Below are positions 4,490 through 32,946 of a stretch of 33,182 nucleotides of DNA, piece after piece. The position numbers and the translations under genes were made by a program. This stretch comes from Leptotrichia sp. oral taxon 879 str. F0557 (lineage in GTDB: Bacteria; Fusobacteriota; Fusobacteriia; Fusobacteriales; Leptotrichiaceae), in contig NZ_KI271302.1 in the NCBI RefSeq assembly GCF_000469385.1, positions 1-33,182 of the forward strand, in the 5' to 3' direction. A model generated the notes under the pieces. It ran no database searches. It was given only the letters and a program-made list of their open reading frames with translations, and was not told where the DNA came from. Positions within the stretch are counted from its first letter, which is position 1; each line of letters begins with the position of its first letter.

Positions 4490-4668
4490 AATAACCACCT
4501 TCTATTTTTTATAATCTTTTTTAGCCAAATAAAACTTCTTTGTTAAAATTTTAAAACCAAATTTTATATGATTTTATTGCCTAAATAATATGCACTAGTA
4601 ACATTTTATGCCAAATTTTTAAATTATAGCTATTTTTCTCAACTCTTAGAAATATTTAATTTTGTTAA

Positions 4669-4760
4669 TTTATACTCAAACCTATTTAAAATTAAACTAT
4701 TAAAATTATATAGATTTAGGGTTTGAGTAAAATAGTCATAGCCTTTTAAGTTTGTTTTTA
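4669..4760. repeat. Degenerate repeat family B, copy 1
   Basis: The sequence starts ATTTATACTCAAACCTA and reads on as TTTAAAATTAAA. An inverted arm, TAGGGTTTGAGT, at 4717-4728 could pair with ACTCAAACCTA at 4674-4684. The same order of words (ATTTATACTCAA-CCTA, TTAAAATTAAA, then ATAGCCT) recurs at 18913-19010. A further partial direct copy, CTCAAACCTATTTTAA, is at 4806-4821. The function is unknown. Confidence 0.5.
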
Positions 4761-4832
4761 AAGCAGTTTTACTATAACATAAAAAAGTTCAATTATATTT
4801 TGATTCTCAAACCTATTTTAACATATTTTCAT

Positions 4833-7067: not shown

Positions 7068-7251
7068 TTCCTTCTCCCTCTTTTATTCACATAATCTTCT
7101 TAATATTTCTCCTGCATCTTCTATATTTATTATGTATAACCAATACTATTTCCCATTTAAAGTTTCAAATCTTAAATTAAATAATATTTACACATATTTA
7201 TCAAATACAAATTGTTATCTTTACATACTTTCTATATTTAATTGGTTAAAC

Positions 7252-9656: not shown

Positions 9657-9776
9657 ACTATAACAAAGTCATTAAAAAATTATAACTATTAAGTCTATAT
9701 TCTAGTATTACCCACTTTTATCAGTTCAGCATAAATAATACTATTTCCCATTCAAGTAACAGAAATCAGAAAATCC

Positions 9777-9851
9777 ATGGAATTAGAGTCTTTTTTAGAA
9801 GATTATACTATTATACAATCTATGTGGCTGTTAAAATATTCTTTTAATTAA
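9777..9851 (+). pseudogene. Possible remnant of an IS3-family transposase (OrfB fragment)
   Basis: A 24-codon plus-strand reading frame gives MELESFLEDYTIIQSM followed by unrelated residues and a stop. In IS3-family OrfB transposases the segment before the last catalytic Glu usually reads like xxxFLKExxIIQSMSRKG, so the first 16 codons resemble that region and break off right after QSM. There is no ribosome site, and no terminal repeats are visible. Sixteen residues are too few for certainty. Confidence 0.22.
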
Positions 9852-9986
9852 ATTTAATCATTAAGTATCCGTCTTAAAGACTTTTATAATTTTATTTATA
9901 AGTATTATGATTAATAATAGTTTTTTCTATTTTTGAAATGGGATTTAGTATTATATAATTATCAAACAGGTTAACAGAATATAACT

Positions 9987-12691: not shown

Positions 12692-14473
12692 CTATCTCAT
12701 CGGAGCAACTGCTGTCAATTCCCATTTGTGAATTCCTTCATCTTTTTTTGATGAATCATATCCAATGTAAACATTTTTTAATCTTTTATTTACTGGATAA
12801 AGTTTATATCTGTACATTAACGGAACTTCTACGGCTTGTCCAATATAGTATTTTTGCCAGTTTTTATATGCTTCTACTTTATAATTTGGAACTGTTAATG
12901 ATTTTTCTCCCAAAATTTCATCTATTAATCTATCATTTTCCTCCGATACAAAACGAGAAAGGTTAAGCTGGGATTTTCTTCCTGCTGAACCAGTTGGATC
13001 TAGACTTGTTCCAACTCCCCATGCTCCAAAGAATACATCTATGTCTTTAGAATCTCCTTGCACTTTTTCGTAAAAATTCTGAAAAGCTAGCAATCTTCCT
13101 GATGTAAGAACAGCTTTTATCCCTATTTTTTTCCAACTTTGAATATAGTTTTGAGCAAGTGGTTCTGCTACATCGCCTCCTGCCATAAATGCCATCTTTA
13201 TTTCAAAAGGCTTTCCATTTTTATCTTCACGGATTCCATCTCCATTTACATCCTTGTATCCCGCTTCATCCAGCAGCTGTTTTGCTTTTTCAGGATTATA
13301 AGGATAACCTTGCAAGTCCTTTGGAAAATATTTCTTAAAAACAGGAGGAATTGATGAAGTTGCTTCCTGCCTTAACCCAAAATAAAACGCATGTGCTATT
13401 TCCTCAACATTTATCGCATACACAAGAGCTTGACGTAATCTTAAATCCGACATCTTGGCATTTGGATCTGTCACATTTTCTCCTTTTGCTTTGTCATAAT
13501 GCCCCAATTTAAAGGCCAAATACGAATAATACAAATCCTGCTGTCCTAATGTTTCTATATTTTTAAAATCCTTGTAATTATTGTAAAGAGAATCAGGCAT
13601 GCTAATTACAAAATCATATTTCCCAGCTTTTAATGCCGCCACTATAGATTGTGAATTTACTACTTGCACTATTGCCTTTTCAATTTTTGGCTTTCCTTTG
13701 TAATAATAAGGATTTGCTGTAAATTCTAGACTTTCTCCACGTGAAACTTTTGTTAAATTATACGGCCCCAATGTTACTGGTTTCATTCTAATTTTATCCG
13801 ATGAAATCAATTCTTTTATTGGAATTCCTTTTAAATAGTGCTTCGGTAGTGCATTTCCAACTAGTCCGTTTGCAACTGTATAAATGCTTTGTCCTAATTG
13901 TAAAAAAGAAATTTCCACCGTTTTATTATCTATTTTTTTTATACCTGAAATATTTGAGGCTTTCCCATCGTGATATTCCTTCATCCCAACAATTTTTTGA
14001 GTTTCTTCAGTATATCTCACACCTGTATAATCTTTATTTCCTATAATTTCATAAGGTAAAATGATGTCATCAACAGTTAGAGGCTGTCCGTCAGACCATT
14101 TTATGCCATCTTTTATTTTTATTGTAGCTTTTTTATTTTTTGCATCAACTCTAAGAGTGGCAGGTCCTTTGTCTGTTATTTCAAAATTTTCATCCACTTC
14201 AAATATACCCGAGCTTAAAAACATTGAAATAATCTCACCATCATAACCATCTGAATAGAATGTCTCATTAAAGACTCCAACCAATGGATCATCCTTTACT
14301 ATCGCCACTTGCAAAGTTCCGCCTTGCACTGCAGGCTCATTGTTTGATGTTTTTTCTGGAAATAGTGATAAATTTAGTTTTGCACCCGGCATTTCACTTC
14401 TCTTTTTACCAGGATTGCACGAAACTACGAATATCAATACAAGAAGCGTGATTAATAATTTCCATTTTTTCAT
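12692..14473 (-). CDS. oppA: Peptide ABC transporter substrate-binding lipoprotein (OppA/family 5)
   Basis: The 593-residue protein captures the substrate in the periplasm for the OppBCDF transporter. The signal peptide ends in a lipobox, VVSC, so Cys19 should be lipidated. The mature part is a family 5 solute-binding protein: DGIKWSDGQPLTVDDI, LGPYNLTKVSRGESLEFTAN, LRLRQALVYAINVEEIA and YNPEKAKQLLDEAGYKDVNG (a hallmark of the family). The C-terminal part, VPLMYRYKLYPVNKRLKNV, closes the fold. It is the last gene of the oppDFBCA cluster, 20 bases after oppC, with ribosome site AGGAG. The substrate is probably oligopeptide, but family 5 also includes nickel, heme and sugar binders. I see no strong terminator between it and glgP. 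Confidence 0.93.
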   Translation of the reverse strand: MKKWKLLITLLVLIFVVSCNPGKKRSEMPGAKLNLSLFPEKTSNNEPAVQGGTLQVAIVKDDPLVGVFNETFYSDGYDGEIISMFLSSGIFEVDENFEITDKGPATLRVDAKNKKATIKIKDGIKWSDGQPLTVDDIILPYEIIGNKDYTGVRYTEETQKIVGMKEYHDGKASNISGIKKIDNKTVEISFLQLGQSIYTVANGLVGNALPKHYLKGIPIKELISSDKIRMKPVTLGPYNLTKVSRGESLEFTANPYYYKGKPKIEKAIVQVVNSQSIVAALKAGKYDFVISMPDSLYNNYKDFKNIETLGQQDLYYSYLAFKLGHYDKAKGENVTDPNAKMSDLRLRQALVYAINVEEIAHAFYFGLRQEATSSIPPVFKKYFPKDLQGYPYNPEKAKQLLDEAGYKDVNGDGIREDKNGKPFEIKMAFMAGGDVAEPLAQNYIQSWKKIGIKAVLTSGRLLAFQNFYEKVQGDSKDIDVFFGAWGVGTSLDPTGSAGRKSQLNLSRFVSEENDRLIDEILGEKSLTVPNYKVEAYKNWQKYYIGQAVEVPLMYRYKLYPVNKRLKNVYIGYDSSKKDEGIHKWELTAVAPMR

Positions 14474-14493
14474 ACTGTTCTCCTTTTTTAGTT

Positions 14494-15426
14494 TTATCCT
14501 CTTCTCTGTTTTGCGTCAGCAGCCCTGTTTAAAGCCTGTCCGACATAATTAATACATAGCATCATAATTAAAATCAATATTGATGCTGGAAGCCAAATCC
14601 ATAATTTTGTTGACAATACTTCTGGATCTGCTGCATAACCAACCAAAGTCCCAAGGCTCGGAGTAGAAAGCGGTAATCCAAAGCCAAGAAAACTAAGCCC
14701 TGTTTCAATTCCAATATTTCCAGCAAATCCTAATGTCAATTCCACAATTATAATTGAACTCAAGTTAGGCAGTATTTCCCTGAAGATTATCGTAAAATCC
14801 TTTGTCCCCATAGTCTTTGAAGCCAAAATATAATCTTTCTGACTTTCAGCAAGTGCCTTACTTCTAATCAGCCTTGCTGCTCCAACCCAGTAAAATGCAC
14901 TCATTATCAGCACAAAAGTTGCTATAGTGTACTTTGGAACAATAGTAACAAACACAATAATGATCATAAGTGTAGGCAAAATCGTAATAAAATCGATAAC
15001 CCTCATAATTACATTATCCACCCATTTTCCATAATATCCTGCAATCAAACCAAAAAATATCCCAATTCCTGATGTCAAAATTGTTATTGTAAAACCAATA
15101 ATAATCGAGTTTCTAGCACCTAGTATCAGTTGCCCCAATATTGAACGCCCACCAGAATCAGAACCTAGCCAAAATCCCTCTTTCATAGGAATGGCATATT
15201 TATCTAGAAGGCTTATTTTCATAATTTCCTCCTGATTTGCAAAAAGCGATCCAATAAAAATTATTCCAAAAAGAATTACAAGAATAATAAGCGAAGCAAG
15301 TGCCAATTTATCTTTTAAAATCTCCCTCACAATAACACTAATTCCAGTCGGCTTGCTACTTTTCTTAATTTCATCAAAATTTTCTGCTTTTTCATTATTT
15401 TTCTTTAAAATTTCATTATTAGACAT
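14494..15426 (-). CDS. oppC: Peptide ABC transporter permease (OppC type)
   Basis: This 310-residue inner-membrane permease has a polar N-terminal tail (about 1-40), a first helix (ALASLIILVILFGIIFIGSL) and an OppC-type external loop that ends FWLGSDSGGRSILGQLILGAR. Five further helices follow, with the cytoplasmic EAA-like loop ILASKTMGTKDFTIIFREIL and then ETGLSFLGFGL, typical of the BPD_transp_1 domain that docks onto the ATPases. It ends NYVGQALNRAADAKQRRG. It lies 11 bases after oppB and 20 before oppA. Confidence 0.94.
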   Translation of the reverse strand: MSNNEILKKNNEKAENFDEIKKSSKPTGISVIVREILKDKLALASLIILVILFGIIFIGSLFANQEEIMKISLLDKYAIPMKEGFWLGSDSGGRSILGQLILGARNSIIIGFTITILTSGIGIFFGLIAGYYGKWVDNVIMRVIDFITILPTLMIIIVFVTIVPKYTIATFVLIMSAFYWVGAARLIRSKALAESQKDYILASKTMGTKDFTIIFREILPNLSSIIIVELTLGFAGNIGIETGLSFLGFGLPLSTPSLGTLVGYAADPEVLSTKLWIWLPASILILIMMLCINYVGQALNRAADAKQRRG

Positions 15427-15437
15427 TTTCTCACCAC

Positions 15438-16400
15438 CTACTCTATTCTAATTCTAGGATCAACAATGCTAAGAATAATATCTGAAAGCAAACTTCCAAG
15501 CAATGTTAAAAATCCAAACAGCAGTATTAATGCTGTAACAACGCTGTAATCCCGTGTTATAATTGAATTTACAAATAGTCCTCCCATTCCAGGATAACTG
15601 AATATTTTTTCAATAAAAATTGAACCTCCCAGAAGCCCTGTTATCGAATAACCAAAAAACGCCGCAATCGGTAAAATCGAATTTCTGAAAATATGTCTTG
15701 AATAAACTTTATTTTCAGGTACCCCCTTACTTTTCGCCGTTTTTACATAATCCAGATTCTTAGCGTCAATTACTTCATTTCTCAAATACTGCACAATCCA
15801 AGTTGTTCCCAGCAATGCATACGTAATTGCAGGCAATATGATGTGATAAATCCTATCCAAAATATGTCCCAAAGTACCAGTATTAAGTCCAGCCGTCACC
15901 GATCCAGTTGTCGGAAACCAGCCAAGCGTATATCCAAAAAACCAAATCATTATAAGCGAAAGCACAAAAGTTGGAATCGCATAGCTCACATAATTATAAA
16001 ATATGACAAATTTATCAAGAAATGAGTTCTGATAACGTCCAGCAAGCATTCCAAGCGGTATTGCAATACAATATGTCAAAATAAGGCTAAGCAGTGACAA
16101 AATAAACGTGTTTACTGCCCGTTCTCCAATAAGCGTCTTTACAGGGACATTATAAGTGTAGCTCATTCCCAAATTTCCAGAAACGGCATTTTTTAGCCAT
16201 CTTACATACTGAATATGCCAAGGATCCAGCAATCCTGCCTTTCTTCGCAACTCTTCAAGTGCCGCAGGATCAGTCTGTGGTGTAATCAGTCCTGTAAACG
16301 GATCTCCCGGCATAAGTTTTGCCAAAATAAAGATTAATAGGCTAAGTATAAATAGTTGCGGTATCATAACCAAAATTCTTCGTAAAACTGTTTTCCACAT
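15438..16400 (-). CDS. oppB: Peptide ABC transporter permease (OppB type)
   Basis: The 320-residue inner-membrane partner of OppC. It begins with the hallmark first helix VLRRILVMIPQLFILSLLIF then KLMPGDPFTG. It continues with GNLGMSYTYNVPV, six membrane segments in total, the EAA loop DYVKTAKSKGVPENKVYSRH and IFIEKIFSYPGMGGLFVNSI, ending LSIVDPRIRIE. Its start codon is 3 bases past the oppF stop, with the ribosome site GGGGGA inside the end of oppF, which suggests coupled translation. Confidence 0.95.
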   Translation of the reverse strand: MWKTVLRRILVMIPQLFILSLLIFILAKLMPGDPFTGLITPQTDPAALEELRRKAGLLDPWHIQYVRWLKNAVSGNLGMSYTYNVPVKTLIGERAVNTFILSLLSLILTYCIAIPLGMLAGRYQNSFLDKFVIFYNYVSYAIPTFVLSLIMIWFFGYTLGWFPTTGSVTAGLNTGTLGHILDRIYHIILPAITYALLGTTWIVQYLRNEVIDAKNLDYVKTAKSKGVPENKVYSRHIFRNSILPIAAFFGYSITGLLGGSIFIEKIFSYPGMGGLFVNSIITRDYSVVTALILLFGFLTLLGSLLSDIILSIVDPRIRIE

Positions 16401-16403
16401 TGA

Positions 16404-17366
16404 TTATTTTCCCCCTTTTCCGTTATTTTGCATTATTTCATCTTTAATAGCGACAAAATGGGTATCTGTTAATTTTTTTAAATTAAATACACGCCCATTT
16501 TCATCATAATATTTTTTTTCATTTTTCAAATATTCCTTTTCAATTTCTAATCGTCTTTTTTTATTTTCTAACCTTTTTTCAGGATGTACTTCTGGAATTG
16601 CAGCAATTAGCCGTTTTGTGTAAAAATGTTCAGGATTTTTATAAATATCATTTTTTATCCCAGTTTCCACAAATCTTCCACGATACATTATAAACATATA
16701 ATCGCACATATGCTTTACAACTCCCAGATCGTGAGAAATAAAAAGATAACTTAGCCCAAACTGCTCCTGAATGTCCTTCATATAATTCAAAACTTGTGCC
16801 TGAACCGATAAATCAAGTGCCGACACAGGCTCATCTGCTATAATCAATTTAGGCTTAGTTGCAACAGCCCGTGCAATTCCCAGCCTCTGTCTCTGTCCTC
16901 CAGAAAATTCATGTGGATATTTATAAATATCTTCTCTATTAATCCCTACAATTTCTAGCAATTCCGACACTTTCCTCTTTTCCTCATCTGAAGTCAAATT
17001 CTCAAAATTTCTCAAAGGCTCAGAAATCAAGTCAATCACTCTCTTCTTAGGGTTTAAGCTAGATAGCGAATCTTGAAAAATCATCTGCACGTTTCTATTG
17101 TATTCACTCCTTCTATCCCGAAACTTCCTATCAATTTCCTTACCTTCGTAAATTATCTTTCCACTTTTTATCTTCTCAAGCCCAATTATCGCTTTTCCAA
17201 TCGTAGACTTTCCAGACCCCGACTCCCCCACAAGTCCATAAGTCTTCCCTTCTTCAATAGTCAAACTGACACCATCCACAGCATACACATGGTCAATTAC
17301 CTTATTAAAAAAGCCCCCACGAATAGGATAATGAACCTTCAAGTCTTTCACTTCAATAAAACTCAT
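16404..17366 (-). CDS. oppF: Peptide ABC transporter ATP-binding protein (OppF type)
   Basis: The 320-residue ATPase shows the OppF-type start VHYPIRGGFFNKV, Walker A GESGSGKST (about 49-57), the Q-loop MIFQDSLSSLNP, signature FSGGQRQR (about 150), Walker B LIIADEP and the switch histidine in FISHDLG. The C-terminal oligopeptide-transporter extension (about 255-320) is lysine/glutamate-rich and ends with the NGRVFNLKKLTDTHFVAI block common in OppF proteins. The start has AAGGAA about 10 bases upstream. It is separated from oppD by 462 bases that contain a repeat element, an unusual gap inside a peptide transporter cluster. I see no convincing promoter there. Confidence 0.95.
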   Translation of the reverse strand: MSFIEVKDLKVHYPIRGGFFNKVIDHVYAVDGVSLTIEEGKTYGLVGESGSGKSTIGKAIIGLEKIKSGKIIYEGKEIDRKFRDRRSEYNRNVQMIFQDSLSSLNPKKRVIDLISEPLRNFENLTSDEEKRKVSELLEIVGINREDIYKYPHEFSGGQRQRLGIARAVATKPKLIIADEPVSALDLSVQAQVLNYMKDIQEQFGLSYLFISHDLGVVKHMCDYMFIMYRGRFVETGIKNDIYKNPEHFYTKRLIAAIPEVHPEKRLENKKRRLEIEKEYLKNEKKYYDENGRVFNLKKLTDTHFVAIKDEIMQNNGKGGK

Positions 17367-17828
17367 ATTTTTGTTTATTCCTTCCTTCCAAAATATTCAA
17401 TAACTCAAATTCTAAATTAAAACTATAATTTCTCATTTTGATTTTAATTTATTTTAATTAATAATTATTTTATCTATAATTTTTATATTTTTTATTTTCA
17501 AAAAAATACGACATTTTTAATTCAATCATAACAAGTAATTTGCTTAAATAAATTTCCAAGCAAAATTTCGTTAGAAGAAAAAGAACTGTTTGAGCTTTTG
17601 AAATATATTTGAAATAAAATTCACTTATTCATAATAAAATAATCTATATTCAAAAGCGAGTTTTCTTTTTCTTTTATAAGAAAGTTTTGCGTTAAGCGGG
17701 GTTGTAAGGGCATGGCGCTTGATGCCCTTACGTTAAAAGAAATTTGAAAACATAAAAGAAAAACTTATTATTCTTCAAAAAATTTTAAATTTTTTTAATT
17801 TAAACTAACCTTCTAAGGTATGATTGAT
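17367..17828. other. 462-base gap between oppD and oppF
   Basis: No gene is seen. The gap contains repeat family A copy 2 (17550-17775) and AT-rich sequence on each side. I could not find a clear promoter for oppF or a clear terminator for oppD, so transcription may continue across the element. Confidence 0.6.
17550..17775. repeat. Hairpin repeat family A, copy 2 (long composite form)
   Basis: There are three parts. The left flank is AATTTCCAAGC. Next is a long imperfect inverted repeat with arms 17559-17601 and 17650-17690; they share GAAAAAGAA and GCTTTTGA with their complements, around a spacer of about 48 bases. The core hairpin at 17704-17731 has stem GTAAGGGCAT and ATGCCCTTAC and loop GGCGCTTG. 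An A-rich tail like that of copy 1 follows. It resembles a small non-autonomous mobile or REP-like element. No flanking target duplication was recognised. Confidence 0.75.
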
Positions 17829-18821
17829 TTATTTTTCAAAATGAAAATTTTTCCAGCAAGTACATCTCACAAAATGCTCTTTTTCCACTTCATGCAATGT
17901 TGGATTTTTTTCGTGTTCACTTTCCTTTATCCACGGAATTCTTTGAGAAAAACGACAGCCTGTTCTTTCTAATTTGGTTAGCGACGGAACAATTCCTTGA
18001 ATTACGCGTAATTTTTCTGTTTCTGTATCAAGTTGCGGGATTGAATTTAACAGAGATCTTGTGTAGGGATGTTTTGGATTATTGAACAAATCATTTACGT
18101 TTGCGATTTCTACAATTTCTCCAGCATACATTACTGCCACTCTGTCCGCCATTTCAGCAACAACGCCCAAATCATGTGTAATCAATATAATCCCAGCGTT
18201 TATTTCACTTTGCAAAGTTTTTAATAAATCCAGTATTTGTGCCTGTATTGTAACGTCCAATGCTGTTGTCGGCTCATCGGCTATAATAATTTCGGGCTTG
18301 CAGGAAAGTGCTATTGCAATCATTACTCTTTGACGCATTCCTCCAGATAATTCGTGCGGAAATTGCCTTGCTACACGTTTTGGATTTTTTATTCCTACAT
18401 TCTGTAGTAATTCCAGCATTCTAGCTTCTCTTTCAGTTTTGGACAATTTTGTATGATAAATCATTCCCTCCTCAATTTGCTCTCCTATTCTCATAAGTGG
18501 ATTTAAAGCCGATAGAGGATCCTGAAATATCATCCCAATTTTATTTCCTCTAATTTTATTGTATTGTTCTTCATCAATTTCTACCAAGTTTTTCCCTTCA
18601 AAATTGATTTCCCCTGTCAATTTTGTGTTAATCGGATTATGCAGTCCAATAATAGAAGTTGCAAGCGTACTTTTTCCACATCCTGACTCCCCCACTATCG
18701 CAAGTATCTCATTTCTTCTAAGTTCCAGCGAAATATTATCCACAGCGGGAAAATATTCATCTTTTATCCGAAAACTTGTAACAAGATTATTAATTTTTAT
18801 CAATGTTTCAGTTTGCTCCAT
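17829..18821 (-). CDS. oppD: Peptide ABC transporter ATP-binding protein (OppD type)
   Basis: The 330-residue ATPase shows Walker A GESGCGKST (about 44-52), the Q-loop MIFQDPLSALNPLM, signature LSGGMRQRV (about 158), Walker B IIIADEPTTALD and switch histidine LITHDLGVVAEMADR. The C-terminal extension has the family end TGCRFSQRIPW ... FVRCTCW. Many OppD/DppD proteins have four conserved cysteines there that can hold an iron-sulfur cluster. Here the expected second one (usually xRCPxx) is Ile (RIPW), leaving three Cys. It is the first gene of the oppDFBCA cluster, with ribosome site AGAGGAG and an extended -10 promoter upstream. Confidence 0.95.
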   Translation of the reverse strand: MEQTETLIKINNLVTSFRIKDEYFPAVDNISLELRRNEILAIVGESGCGKSTLATSIIGLHNPINTKLTGEINFEGKNLVEIDEEQYNKIRGNKIGMIFQDPLSALNPLMRIGEQIEEGMIYHTKLSKTEREARMLELLQNVGIKNPKRVARQFPHELSGGMRQRVMIAIALSCKPEIIIADEPTTALDVTIQAQILDLLKTLQSEINAGIILITHDLGVVAEMADRVAVMYAGEIVEIANVNDLFNNPKHPYTRSLLNSIPQLDTETEKLRVIQGIVPSLTKLERTGCRFSQRIPWIKESEHEKNPTLHEVEKEHFVRCTCWKNFHFEK

Positions 18822-18881: not shown

Positions 18882-18912
18882 TAATTTTTATTTTTTTTCC
18901 TATTATTTTTTA

Positions 18913-19010
18913 AATTTATACTCAACCTAGCTTAAAATTAAAGTAAAAAAACATCTAAAAAGTGACAGATTATAGCCTAACCTTCTATTCTTATTTAAAA
19001 CTGAAATTAT
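18913..19010. repeat. Degenerate repeat family B, copy 2
   Basis: It starts ATTTATACTCAACCTA, continues CTTAAAATTAAAG and later ATTATAGCCTAACCTT, following the same word order as 4669-4760. Identity decays after the first 30 bases. It lies upstream of the opp cluster. Confidence 0.45.
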
Positions 19011-20279: not shown

Positions 20280-20303
20280 TATTCCCTATTTAAACGGGGA
20301 ATA
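20280..20303 (+). other. Inverted repeat in the trmN6 upstream region
   Basis: TATTCCC (20280-20286) and GGGAATA (20297-20303) pair around a 10-base loop, just upstream of a TATAAA-like -10 (20311-20316) and the ribosome site AAAGGAG. It may be an operator or a second terminator-like stem; no T-run follows. Confidence 0.35.
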
Positions 20304-20337
20304 GTATTAGTATAAAAAGAAAAAGGAGTTACATTTT

Positions 20338-21066
20338 ATGAAAAAAAACGGAGAAGAAACAGTTACTCCAATAAAAAATATGAAAGTTATTCAACGAAAT
20401 GACTTTCAAAACTTTACACTTGATTCCGTCTTGCTTGCAGACTTTGTAAAAATTAATCGAAAAACTAAAAAAATTCTTGATATTGGAACTGGCTGTGGAA
20501 TTATCGCTTTACTTCTGGCACAGCGGTCAAAAGCTCAAATTACAGGCATAGAATTACAAGAAACAATGGCAGAAATTGCCATAAGAAATATTAATGGCAA
20601 TAAATTTGAAAATCAGGTTAAAATAATAAACGAAGATATAAAAAATTATAATAATATTTTTAACCGTGATGAATTTGACACCATTGTTACAAATCCCCCA
20701 TATTTTGAATTTACTGGCGATATTTCCCAAACAAACAATTTGGAACAACTGGCAAACGCAAGACATAATATTAATTTAACACTTGAAGAAATAATAAAAA
20801 TTTCTTCTTATTTATTAAAAAATATGGGAAGTTTCTCAATTGTATTCCGAAGTGAACGTCTAGTAGAAGTTCTATCACTTTTACAAAAATATAATTTAGA
20901 GCCAAAACGAATGAAAAACTGCTATACAAAATGGAATGAAAACTCAAAAATTTGCCTTTTAGAAGCAATAAAAGATGCAAAGAAAGGATTTTCTATTGAA
21001 ATGCCGATTTTTGTTTATGACGAAAATGGAAGAAGAAGTGAATATGTTGAGAATTTGTATAAATAA
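20338..21066 (+). CDS. trmN6: tRNA1(Val) A37 N6-methyltransferase-like protein (YfiC/TrmN6 family)
   Basis: The 242-residue protein is a class I SAM-dependent methyltransferase. It shows motif I ILDIGTGCGIIALLLAQRS (about 46-64), an acidic strand end ITGIELQE, and the N6-adenine catalytic tetrapeptide in VTNPPYFE (about 118-125). It also has the YfiC/YabB-type start QRNDFQNFTLDSVLLADFV and ANARHNINLTLEEII. The family methylates adenine 37 of a tRNA in E. coli; the exact target here is inferred. The ribosome site AAAGGAG lies 9 bases before the ATG. It follows yebC after a terminator and is convergent with fucO, with a repeat element between them. Confidence 0.88.
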   Translation: MKKNGEETVTPIKNMKVIQRNDFQNFTLDSVLLADFVKINRKTKKILDIGTGCGIIALLLAQRSKAQITGIELQETMAEIAIRNINGNKFENQVKIINEDIKNYNNIFNRDEFDTIVTNPPYFEFTGDISQTNNLEQLANARHNINLTLEEIIKISSYLLKNMGSFSIVFRSERLVEVLSLLQKYNLEPKRMKNCYTKWNENSKICLLEAIKDAKKGFSIEMPIFVYDENGRRSEYVENLYK

Positions 21067-21432
21067 AAAACTTTAAAATATATTTTTTAACTTCTCTTAA
21101 TTTTTATATTTTGATTAAATATTCGCTTTTATATCTGATACAATTATTGTAGTTAAATTGAAAACGTCGTCATTTTTTGGGAATGAAAACGATTGTTTGA
21201 ACGAAGTAATACGGAGCGAGTTTCGTTTTCGTAGTAATTCAGGTTTATCCAAATAATAAATGTTTTGACTACTTTCCCAAATAAAATTTGAGAATATTTC
21301 AAAAAAATGCTTAGATAAGCCAGGGATGCAAGGGAAATGGCGATTGATTTCCCTTGCTTTACAAAAAGAAAAAACATAAAAATTAAAAGAAAATTTTTTA
21401 TACAATTTATATAATTTTAAAAATTATAATAA
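21067..21432. other. 366-base gap between the convergent trmN6 and fucO genes
   Basis: No gene is seen. Most of it is repeat family A copy 3 (21185-21357) plus its A-rich tail. Short AT-only inverted repeats near 21400-21432 might end fucO transcription but lack a GC-rich stem. Confidence 0.6.
21185..21357. repeat. Hairpin repeat family A, copy 3 (divergent)
   Basis: The first hairpin has arms GAAAACGA (21185-21192) and TCGTTTTC (21223-21230) enclosing TTGTTTGAAC and GAGCGAGTT. Those words match TGTTTGAGC and GCGAGTTTTC of copy 2's long inverted repeat. After a spacer of about 97 bases, the core hairpin at 21328-21357 has an 11-bp stem (GCAAGGGAAAT and ATTTCCCTTGC) around loop GGCGATTG. The stem differs from copies 1 and 2 on both arms in ways that keep pairing, and the loop keeps the pattern GGCGNNTG. 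Confidence 0.75.
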
Positions 21433-32723: not shown

Positions 32724-32946
32724 TTTATTTTAAATTTTTTGATTAACAAATATTCTTTCTATAATTCTTATATTTTTTCTTCTTTTATACTAGTCGCCAT
32801 CTCATTTATAATCTCAGCTCATCTAAGCATTTTTTTAAATCACGACATTAAATTATAAAGATTGCTATATTTAAATTTCAGGTTTTTAAACTCGAAAATT
32901 ATTAAATAAAAAGCTAGGCTTTCAACCACATTCTATTTATTTTTTC

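Follow-up and report, generated by a model that had tools for sequence, protein, structure and literature searches.

An opp cluster on the minus strand of the window (the whole stretch of 33,182 nucleotides from Leptotrichia sp. oral taxon 879 str. F0557 that was analysed here) raises the question of what has come to lie between two of its genes. Its genes (12692-18821) code for two ABC ATPases, a pair of permeases and one family-5 binding protein. According to Pfam, both ATPases are ABC_tran plus oligo_HPY, the permeases are two BPD_transp_1 proteins and the binding protein is SBP_bac_5; the names oppD and oppF are assigned from gene order and domain content. The ATPase ORFs occupy 16404-17366 and 17829-18821 (both minus strand) and leave a gap of 462 bases (17367-17828), while the remaining intergenic gaps of the cluster are 20, 11 and 3 bases: the sequence-only reading, which had called the oppD-oppF gap oddly long, was right. 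The ORF list holds no internal ORF of at least 100 amino acids in the gap, as would be the case for a MITE; an antisense ORF (17073-17420) extends over the first 54 bases of the gap.

We consider the insert to be a remodelled remnant of a non-autonomous, modular MITE/BOX-like intergenic repeat of Leptotrichia, with a probability of roughly 0.8. It would go back to a single insertion event in the common ancestor of seven occupied species, with a transposase that has been lost or escaped recognition acting in trans, and would later have been reshuffled through recombination between dispersed copies; its intergenic position presumably explains why the insert is tolerated. The parts of the insert and the related pieces in the window are:

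About 17452-17489, no strand assigned: remnant of the left AT-rich end (TTTTAATTAATAATTATTTTATC...), common to G010 and G008.
17490-17557, plus: inner left part of the composite, which by eye weakly resembles the sequence before module a in G011 and G006.
17558-17697, plus: module a, a long imperfect inverted repeat ending in AAGC, with arms at 17560-17601 and 17650-17690.
17704-17731, plus (outward): core hairpin of class I, GTAAGGGCAT-GGCGCTTG-ATGCCCTTAC (model R1, 67.8 bits).
17732-17790, plus: AT-rich outer end, shared with other copies.
372-467, plus: second copy in the window, hairpin I and AT-rich end without module a (right end only).
21298-21372, plus: end of the opposite type, module b and a class IV hairpin (from similarity and the hairpin model).
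9736-9953, no strand assigned: element of 218 bp that has an outer inverted terminus on either side, TAATACTATTTCCC...GGGATTTAGTATTA (from terminus matches).
20289-20309, plus: outer terminus TTTAAACGGGGAATAGTATTA without recognised partner, ending 28 bp before a methyltransferase ATG.

Several details of the sequence-only reading hold up. Its repeat arms (17559-17601 and 17650-17690) nearly coincide with the pairs of the 34-copy consensus (17560-17601 with 17650-17690), and its core hairpin is real: 17704-17731 forms a perfect 10-bp stem and has a near-identical second copy at 382-409, with two mismatches (mean in shuffles 0.00). The A-rich tail that it described is present and is really an AT-rich end common to other copies. 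Its span of 17550-17775 captured a real insert and is slightly narrow, as the divergence from G010 and G008 begins at about 17490. The first 124 nucleotides of the gap are 99% identical to G010 and 96% to the L. hongkongensis strain JMUB5056 (G008), and sequence similar to the left AT-rich remnant is found at the same place in other occupied species. At about 17490, the own genome (G000) switches from this G010-like sequence to a version 75-80% like the inserts that other species carry in the opposite orientation. Going by this switch, the left border appears to be an old one held in common, and the interior to have been exchanged. A left hairpin end was not recognised in the opp copy, which keeps only the class I end, and the true outer border of the unit is uncertain because the whole region is AT-rich. 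The insert is thus a mosaic of modules: the proposal of a small non-autonomous element has the type of repeat right, but one simple element it is not.

The oppF-oppD spacer differs widely among relatives, and the 460-base gap is not common to them all. In three of 13 Leptotrichia genomes (G002, G003, G004) the spacer is 50 bp long; a check of the junction in relatives had been proposed, and this short spacing is the empty site expected of a MITE. Together with the dispersal of the family, it bears out the proposal that a non-coding repeat of mobile type landed in the operon. Hairpin-type spacers measure 462 bp in G000, 616 bp in G001, 674 bp in G006, 604 bp in G009, 603 bp in G011 and 478 bp in each of G008 and G010, and model R1 finds the core hairpin in all seven (lowest best score 41 bits, in G006). 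The spacers of G005 and G012 (183 bp) are filled by another dispersed repeat, with 45 BLAST hits in the collected DNA including the loci themselves, and that of G007 consists of some 305 bp of AT-rich sequence, which has weak AT-rich similarity only. Outside the genus, the gap is -20 to 104 bp in 8 of 11 family genomes searched by a simple ORF-based estimate, which for G022 gives 9 bp where flank matches give 48 bp. When a tree is built from the coding flanks (465 columns), the seven hairpin-bearing genomes form one clade with moderate support (85/97) and the three short-gap genomes are its sister (96/95). Two stretches of the window, 4653-4776 and 18887-18959, are 82% and 77% like the repeat in the 183-bp spacers.

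Among the occupied species, G001, G006, G009 and G011 have a common insert that is inverted with respect to G000 (same-strand pieces of at least 100 bp are 90-100% alike), and the inserts of G008 and G010 are 98.5% alike and consist of a class IV hairpin end and a third dispersed repeat with 141 hits. Inversion in place as the sole change was rejected: the G000 insert is only 75-80% like the inverted ones while the coding flanks of these species are 89-97% like its own, and copies elsewhere are equally close or closer (up to 87%). The inserts in the spacers of G006 and G001 (L080, L075) are 99% identical over 478 bp, although the flank tree puts G006 outside G001, G009 and G011; an exchange between species may account for this segment.

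The repeat is widely dispersed. Within the 79 contigs (2.4 Mb) of the own genome, at least 59 pieces match 17550-17800, a lower bound since scoring covered 40 of the 239 candidate places; a single element may account for more than one of the pieces. A covariance model found 60 core hairpins in the own genome, 62 in L. hongkongensis JMUB5056 and 71 in G009 (150 candidates scored in each). A dispersed family with this many copies is what a MITE would leave. Matches to the opp-type element occur in 23 of 33 family genomes; the 13 Leptotrichia genomes have between 0 and 39 matches each with at most 23 candidates scored per genome (none in G012), and matches outside Leptotrichia are weak (E 6e-8 or worse). 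Phage and plasmid collections gave no match to the element at the sensitivity used, which led us to reject an origin from phage or plasmid, and the exact hairpin pattern is absent from viral contigs. Nearly all hairpin clusters (58/59) lie outside simple ORFs. Typed clusters lie between same-direction genes in 46 of 53 cases, with simple ORF calls used as genes and the orthologous clusters of each species counted separately; operon spacers are therefore not preferred, as this resembles the background, where it holds for 557 of 640 gaps and, at a length of at least 200 bases, for 169 of 223.

On the minus strand, the RNA of 17550-17760 folds with -47.6 kcal/mol, compared with -28.0 +/- 4.0 in 200 shuffles, none of which folds as well (z -4.9). 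The core hairpins share an AT-closed loop, GGCGNYTG, and their stems fall into several sequence classes: I (GTAAGGGCAT), II (GCAGAGGTAT), III (GTAAAGGGGAT) and IV (GCAAGGGAAAT). Pairing was assessed in windows picked by module a or by the loop motif, which are fairer tests than rows picked by pairing. When windows were picked by module a alone, 48 of 64 had a stem of at least 8 (29 of 320 base shuffles); two of these 48 stems enclose a different loop, and some of the 16 windows without such a stem look like chance matches or bear a further module. In the 50 of 64 module-a windows that have the loop motif, 490 of 500 stem cells are Watson-Crick pairs, two are G.T and three A.C. Module a itself is 98.4% paired over 32 base pairs in 34 copies picked by similarity. 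Ten of its pairs have two-sided changes (5.8 +/- 1.0 in shuffles, 0 of 500 as high; 0-2 in slid structures), although the cells are not independent events because the copies are related. Counted for a strand preference, its wobble pairs comprise 34 G.T and seven A.C cells, but one column gives 12 of the 34 G.T cells; in the core hairpin the counts are two and three. Module a is nevertheless kept as a paired structure, through selection or palindrome-correcting repair.

The strong fold and the compensatory changes in module a could also belong to a regulatory RNA or attenuator under selection in the opp operon, with no mobile element involved. This is very unlikely: the same sequence is present at dozens of other loci, orientation and content at opp vary between sister species, three Leptotrichia species have no insert, and no Rfam family matches at gathering scores, where the only hit in the window is a tRNA.

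The hairpins are arranged in a regular way: in all 32 close pairs, spaced 274-559 bp apart, the hairpins point outward and are of unlike class (I/II with III/IV), and it is such a pair that bounds a complete unit. This count treats orthologues from different species as separate copies and covers neither the 20-kb blocks nor the window. Unlike ends around a variable middle are also the hallmark of the BOX repeats, and the Leptotrichia repeats resemble BOX in this and other respects. BOX elements have a host of a different phylum. As described in part of PMC3049150, the BOX of Streptococcus pneumoniae is modular, 67-637 bp long, with boxA and boxC ends around boxB, and the likeness extends to unlike end modules, terminal inverted repeats, target duplication, folding and insertion of repeats into one another. 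The likeness is one of description, and there are differences: the stems of the Leptotrichia hairpins belong to several compensatory classes that share one loop, and some Leptotrichia copies are enclosed by an outer element with a TWA duplication. One rather doubtful explanation of the unlike ends is that they are recognised by their fold, as an extruded cruciform or a single-stranded hairpin, by a putative recombinase that joins only unlike ends. If so, Leptotrichia would have a fold-guided mobile system of its own that re-sorts inner modules, and the recombinase could flip a unit; the opposite orientations seen at opp may be a sign of this.

In G008 and G009, a larger element that ends in TTTAAAYGGGRWWTAGTATWA (TACTAWWYCCCRTTTAAA ends) encloses some of the copies; the ends are inverted and 21 bp long. 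With up to two mismatches, there are 114 of these ends in G009 and 107 in G006 (0 and 1 with the reversed pattern as control), and with up to one mismatch they are present in all 13 Leptotrichia genomes (4-80 each) and in none of 83 other genomes of the order. Outward pairs of termini are 74-861 bp apart in many sizes (69 pairs, up to four mismatches), and G012 has a clean 119-bp form. Since some forms of about 170-220 bp lack the hairpin unit, this unit seems to be nested in an outer element. The 218-bp element at 9736-9953 belongs to this family, which elsewhere encloses hairpin units, and is found with the same flanks in G006. In the window, a lone outer terminus lies at 7141-7161 (minus) and a copy of module-b sequence without recognised hairpin at 32794-32839 (minus). 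The terminus at 20289-20309 precedes the methyltransferase gene (20338-21066) and may supply it with a -10-like box.

The ends of the outer element duplicate a TWA target. In G012 and G003, 18 of 19 outward pairs (16 loci) have the same TWA on both sides, and among the G004 rows listed four of eight do by eye. Across the whole collected DNA, with orthologues included, 102 pairs divide into 57 with equal TWA, 20 with opposite TWA and 25 others, i.e. counts are mixed but favourable, and the rule is not universal. Two empty sites reveal the duplication directly. When L275 (G012) is compared with L168 (G002), whose flanks are 90-92% alike, a single TAA stands against the two of the occupied site; when L251 (G008) is compared with L325 (G001), with flanks 76-83% alike, there is a single TTA. 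A third comparison, of L217 with L146, is compatible with one TAA, but with a change of about 20 bases alongside. Two further candidate sites (L137, L232) are unreadable. Gene order around opp is heavily rearranged between close species (G008, G010, G006 and G002 blocks, L133-L172), and large-block synteny therefore yields few usable empty sites. Of the five matches to the outer terminus in the window (up to three mismatches), none is in the opp spacer. The family has terminal inverted repeats while the opp copy has AT-rich ends and one hairpin; a target duplication, which the sequence-only reading proposed to look for at opp, is not readable in this old, remodelled copy, and its insertion is inferred from the short gaps of relatives alone.

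No mobilising enzyme was found at 78 transposase loci (30 rve, 30 DDE_Tnp_1 and 18 Y1, up to 30 loci per search), and no outward pair of termini hugging a transposase gene was seen by eye among the scanned loci. Transposase loci do lie near some termini (L310, L314, L316, L322/L330, L325, L328, L336). At L325 (G001, 1122-2400), two perfect outer termini in identical orientation flank a DDE_Tnp_1 insertion (about 1427-2381). DDE elements that duplicate TWA/TNA include IS5-like elements and the Tourist MITEs of PIF/Harbinger, and the outer element shares the 3-bp TWA duplication with these; the DDE_Tnp_1 copies of G001, which we take to be IS5, do not share its terminus, and the printed copy begins near GGGCGTGTCTGAAAACTC. 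Candidates for an autonomous copy were rejected. In two cases, the paired hairpins lie 4.2 kb (L173) and 3.6 kb (L174) from each other; the ORFs between them match the window's yebC-type and methyltransferase genes in length and order, so that these hairpins are separate copies around host genes. Of four outward pairs of termini in the collected DNA that are 0.86-5.5 kb apart, three enclose host-like ORFs by eye; the pair of 861 bp encloses no ORF of 80 amino acids, and the ORFs within a 1.5-kb pair in G003 also occur in G004.

A palindrome with a conserved loop that is intergenic and dispersed could equally describe a repeat of the REP/BIME type, moved by a RAYT-like Y1 transposase. The distribution of Y1 transposases makes this highly improbable: Y1_Tnp has no match in G008, G010 or G011, where the element matches number 28, 28 and 35, respectively, while G012 gives nine matches for Y1 and none for the opp-type element. 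The 18 Y1 loci, which do not include the degenerate own-genome loci L102-L104, show no linkage and have terminus matches only with four to five mismatches. In close pairs, the hairpins are inverted and differ in class. The non-autonomous MITE/BOX-like repeat remains the preferred reading.

What does the insert do to opp expression? The sequence-only reading had suggested that it uncouples oppD from oppFBCA, and an intrinsic (possibly bidirectional) terminator or promoter cassette would do so. In its favour are the hairpin with an A-rich side and the fact that outer termini elsewhere end in a TAGTATAA-like, -10-like sequence. It is nonetheless unlikely: both strands of 17300-17900 have no terminator-like site (a GC stem followed by a T run), promoter-like sites are at the level of shuffles (4 versus 3.1), and the class I hairpin is followed by GTTAAAA outward and by AACCCCGC inward on the other strand, with no T runs. 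The suggested uncoupling thus finds no basis here. With no terminator-like site and promoter-like sites at shuffle level, read-through is expected, and the opp transcript likely carries a long folded stretch. By analogy, its long hairpin is a possible processing site of RNase III type or for RNase E. According to parts of PMC3049150 and PMC10969869, the folded Correia and ERIC repeats are transcribed within operons, with RNase III cleavage of Correia and a putative RNase E site in ERIC; the likeness to these repeats, which also lie inside operons, is by description alone.

The Chunjie MITE of Geobacter uraniireducens is similar in being a repeat with terminal inverted repeats in an uptake operon, with many intergenic or partial copies; as described in part of PMC10969869, Chunjie is 178-235 bp long with conserved termini, in contrast to the opp copy, which lacks outer ends and is a mosaic. 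A description of such a Leptotrichia repeat was not found in open-access full text: the sections available of the L. buccalis genome paper (PMC3035221) do not mention one, and the main text of a review of prokaryotic MITEs (PMC10969869) has neither Fusobacteri- nor Leptotrichia. The repeat system is new and, being MITE/BOX-like, ordinary in kind; the nesting and the unlike, compensatory hairpin ends are unusual. Leptotrichia hence gains a genus-wide system of nested non-autonomous repeats, and one operon spacer displays the short, the occupied, the oppositely oriented and the swapped state among close species. With their compensatory stems, the unlike hairpin ends are a clean starting point for tracking down the missing enzyme that mobilises the repeats.

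Draft assemblies suffer from the repeats as well: at five loci of the own genome (L002, L015, L021, L024, L028), runs of N lie inside or beside element sequence, and the draft assembly seems to have been broken or patched at these repeats.
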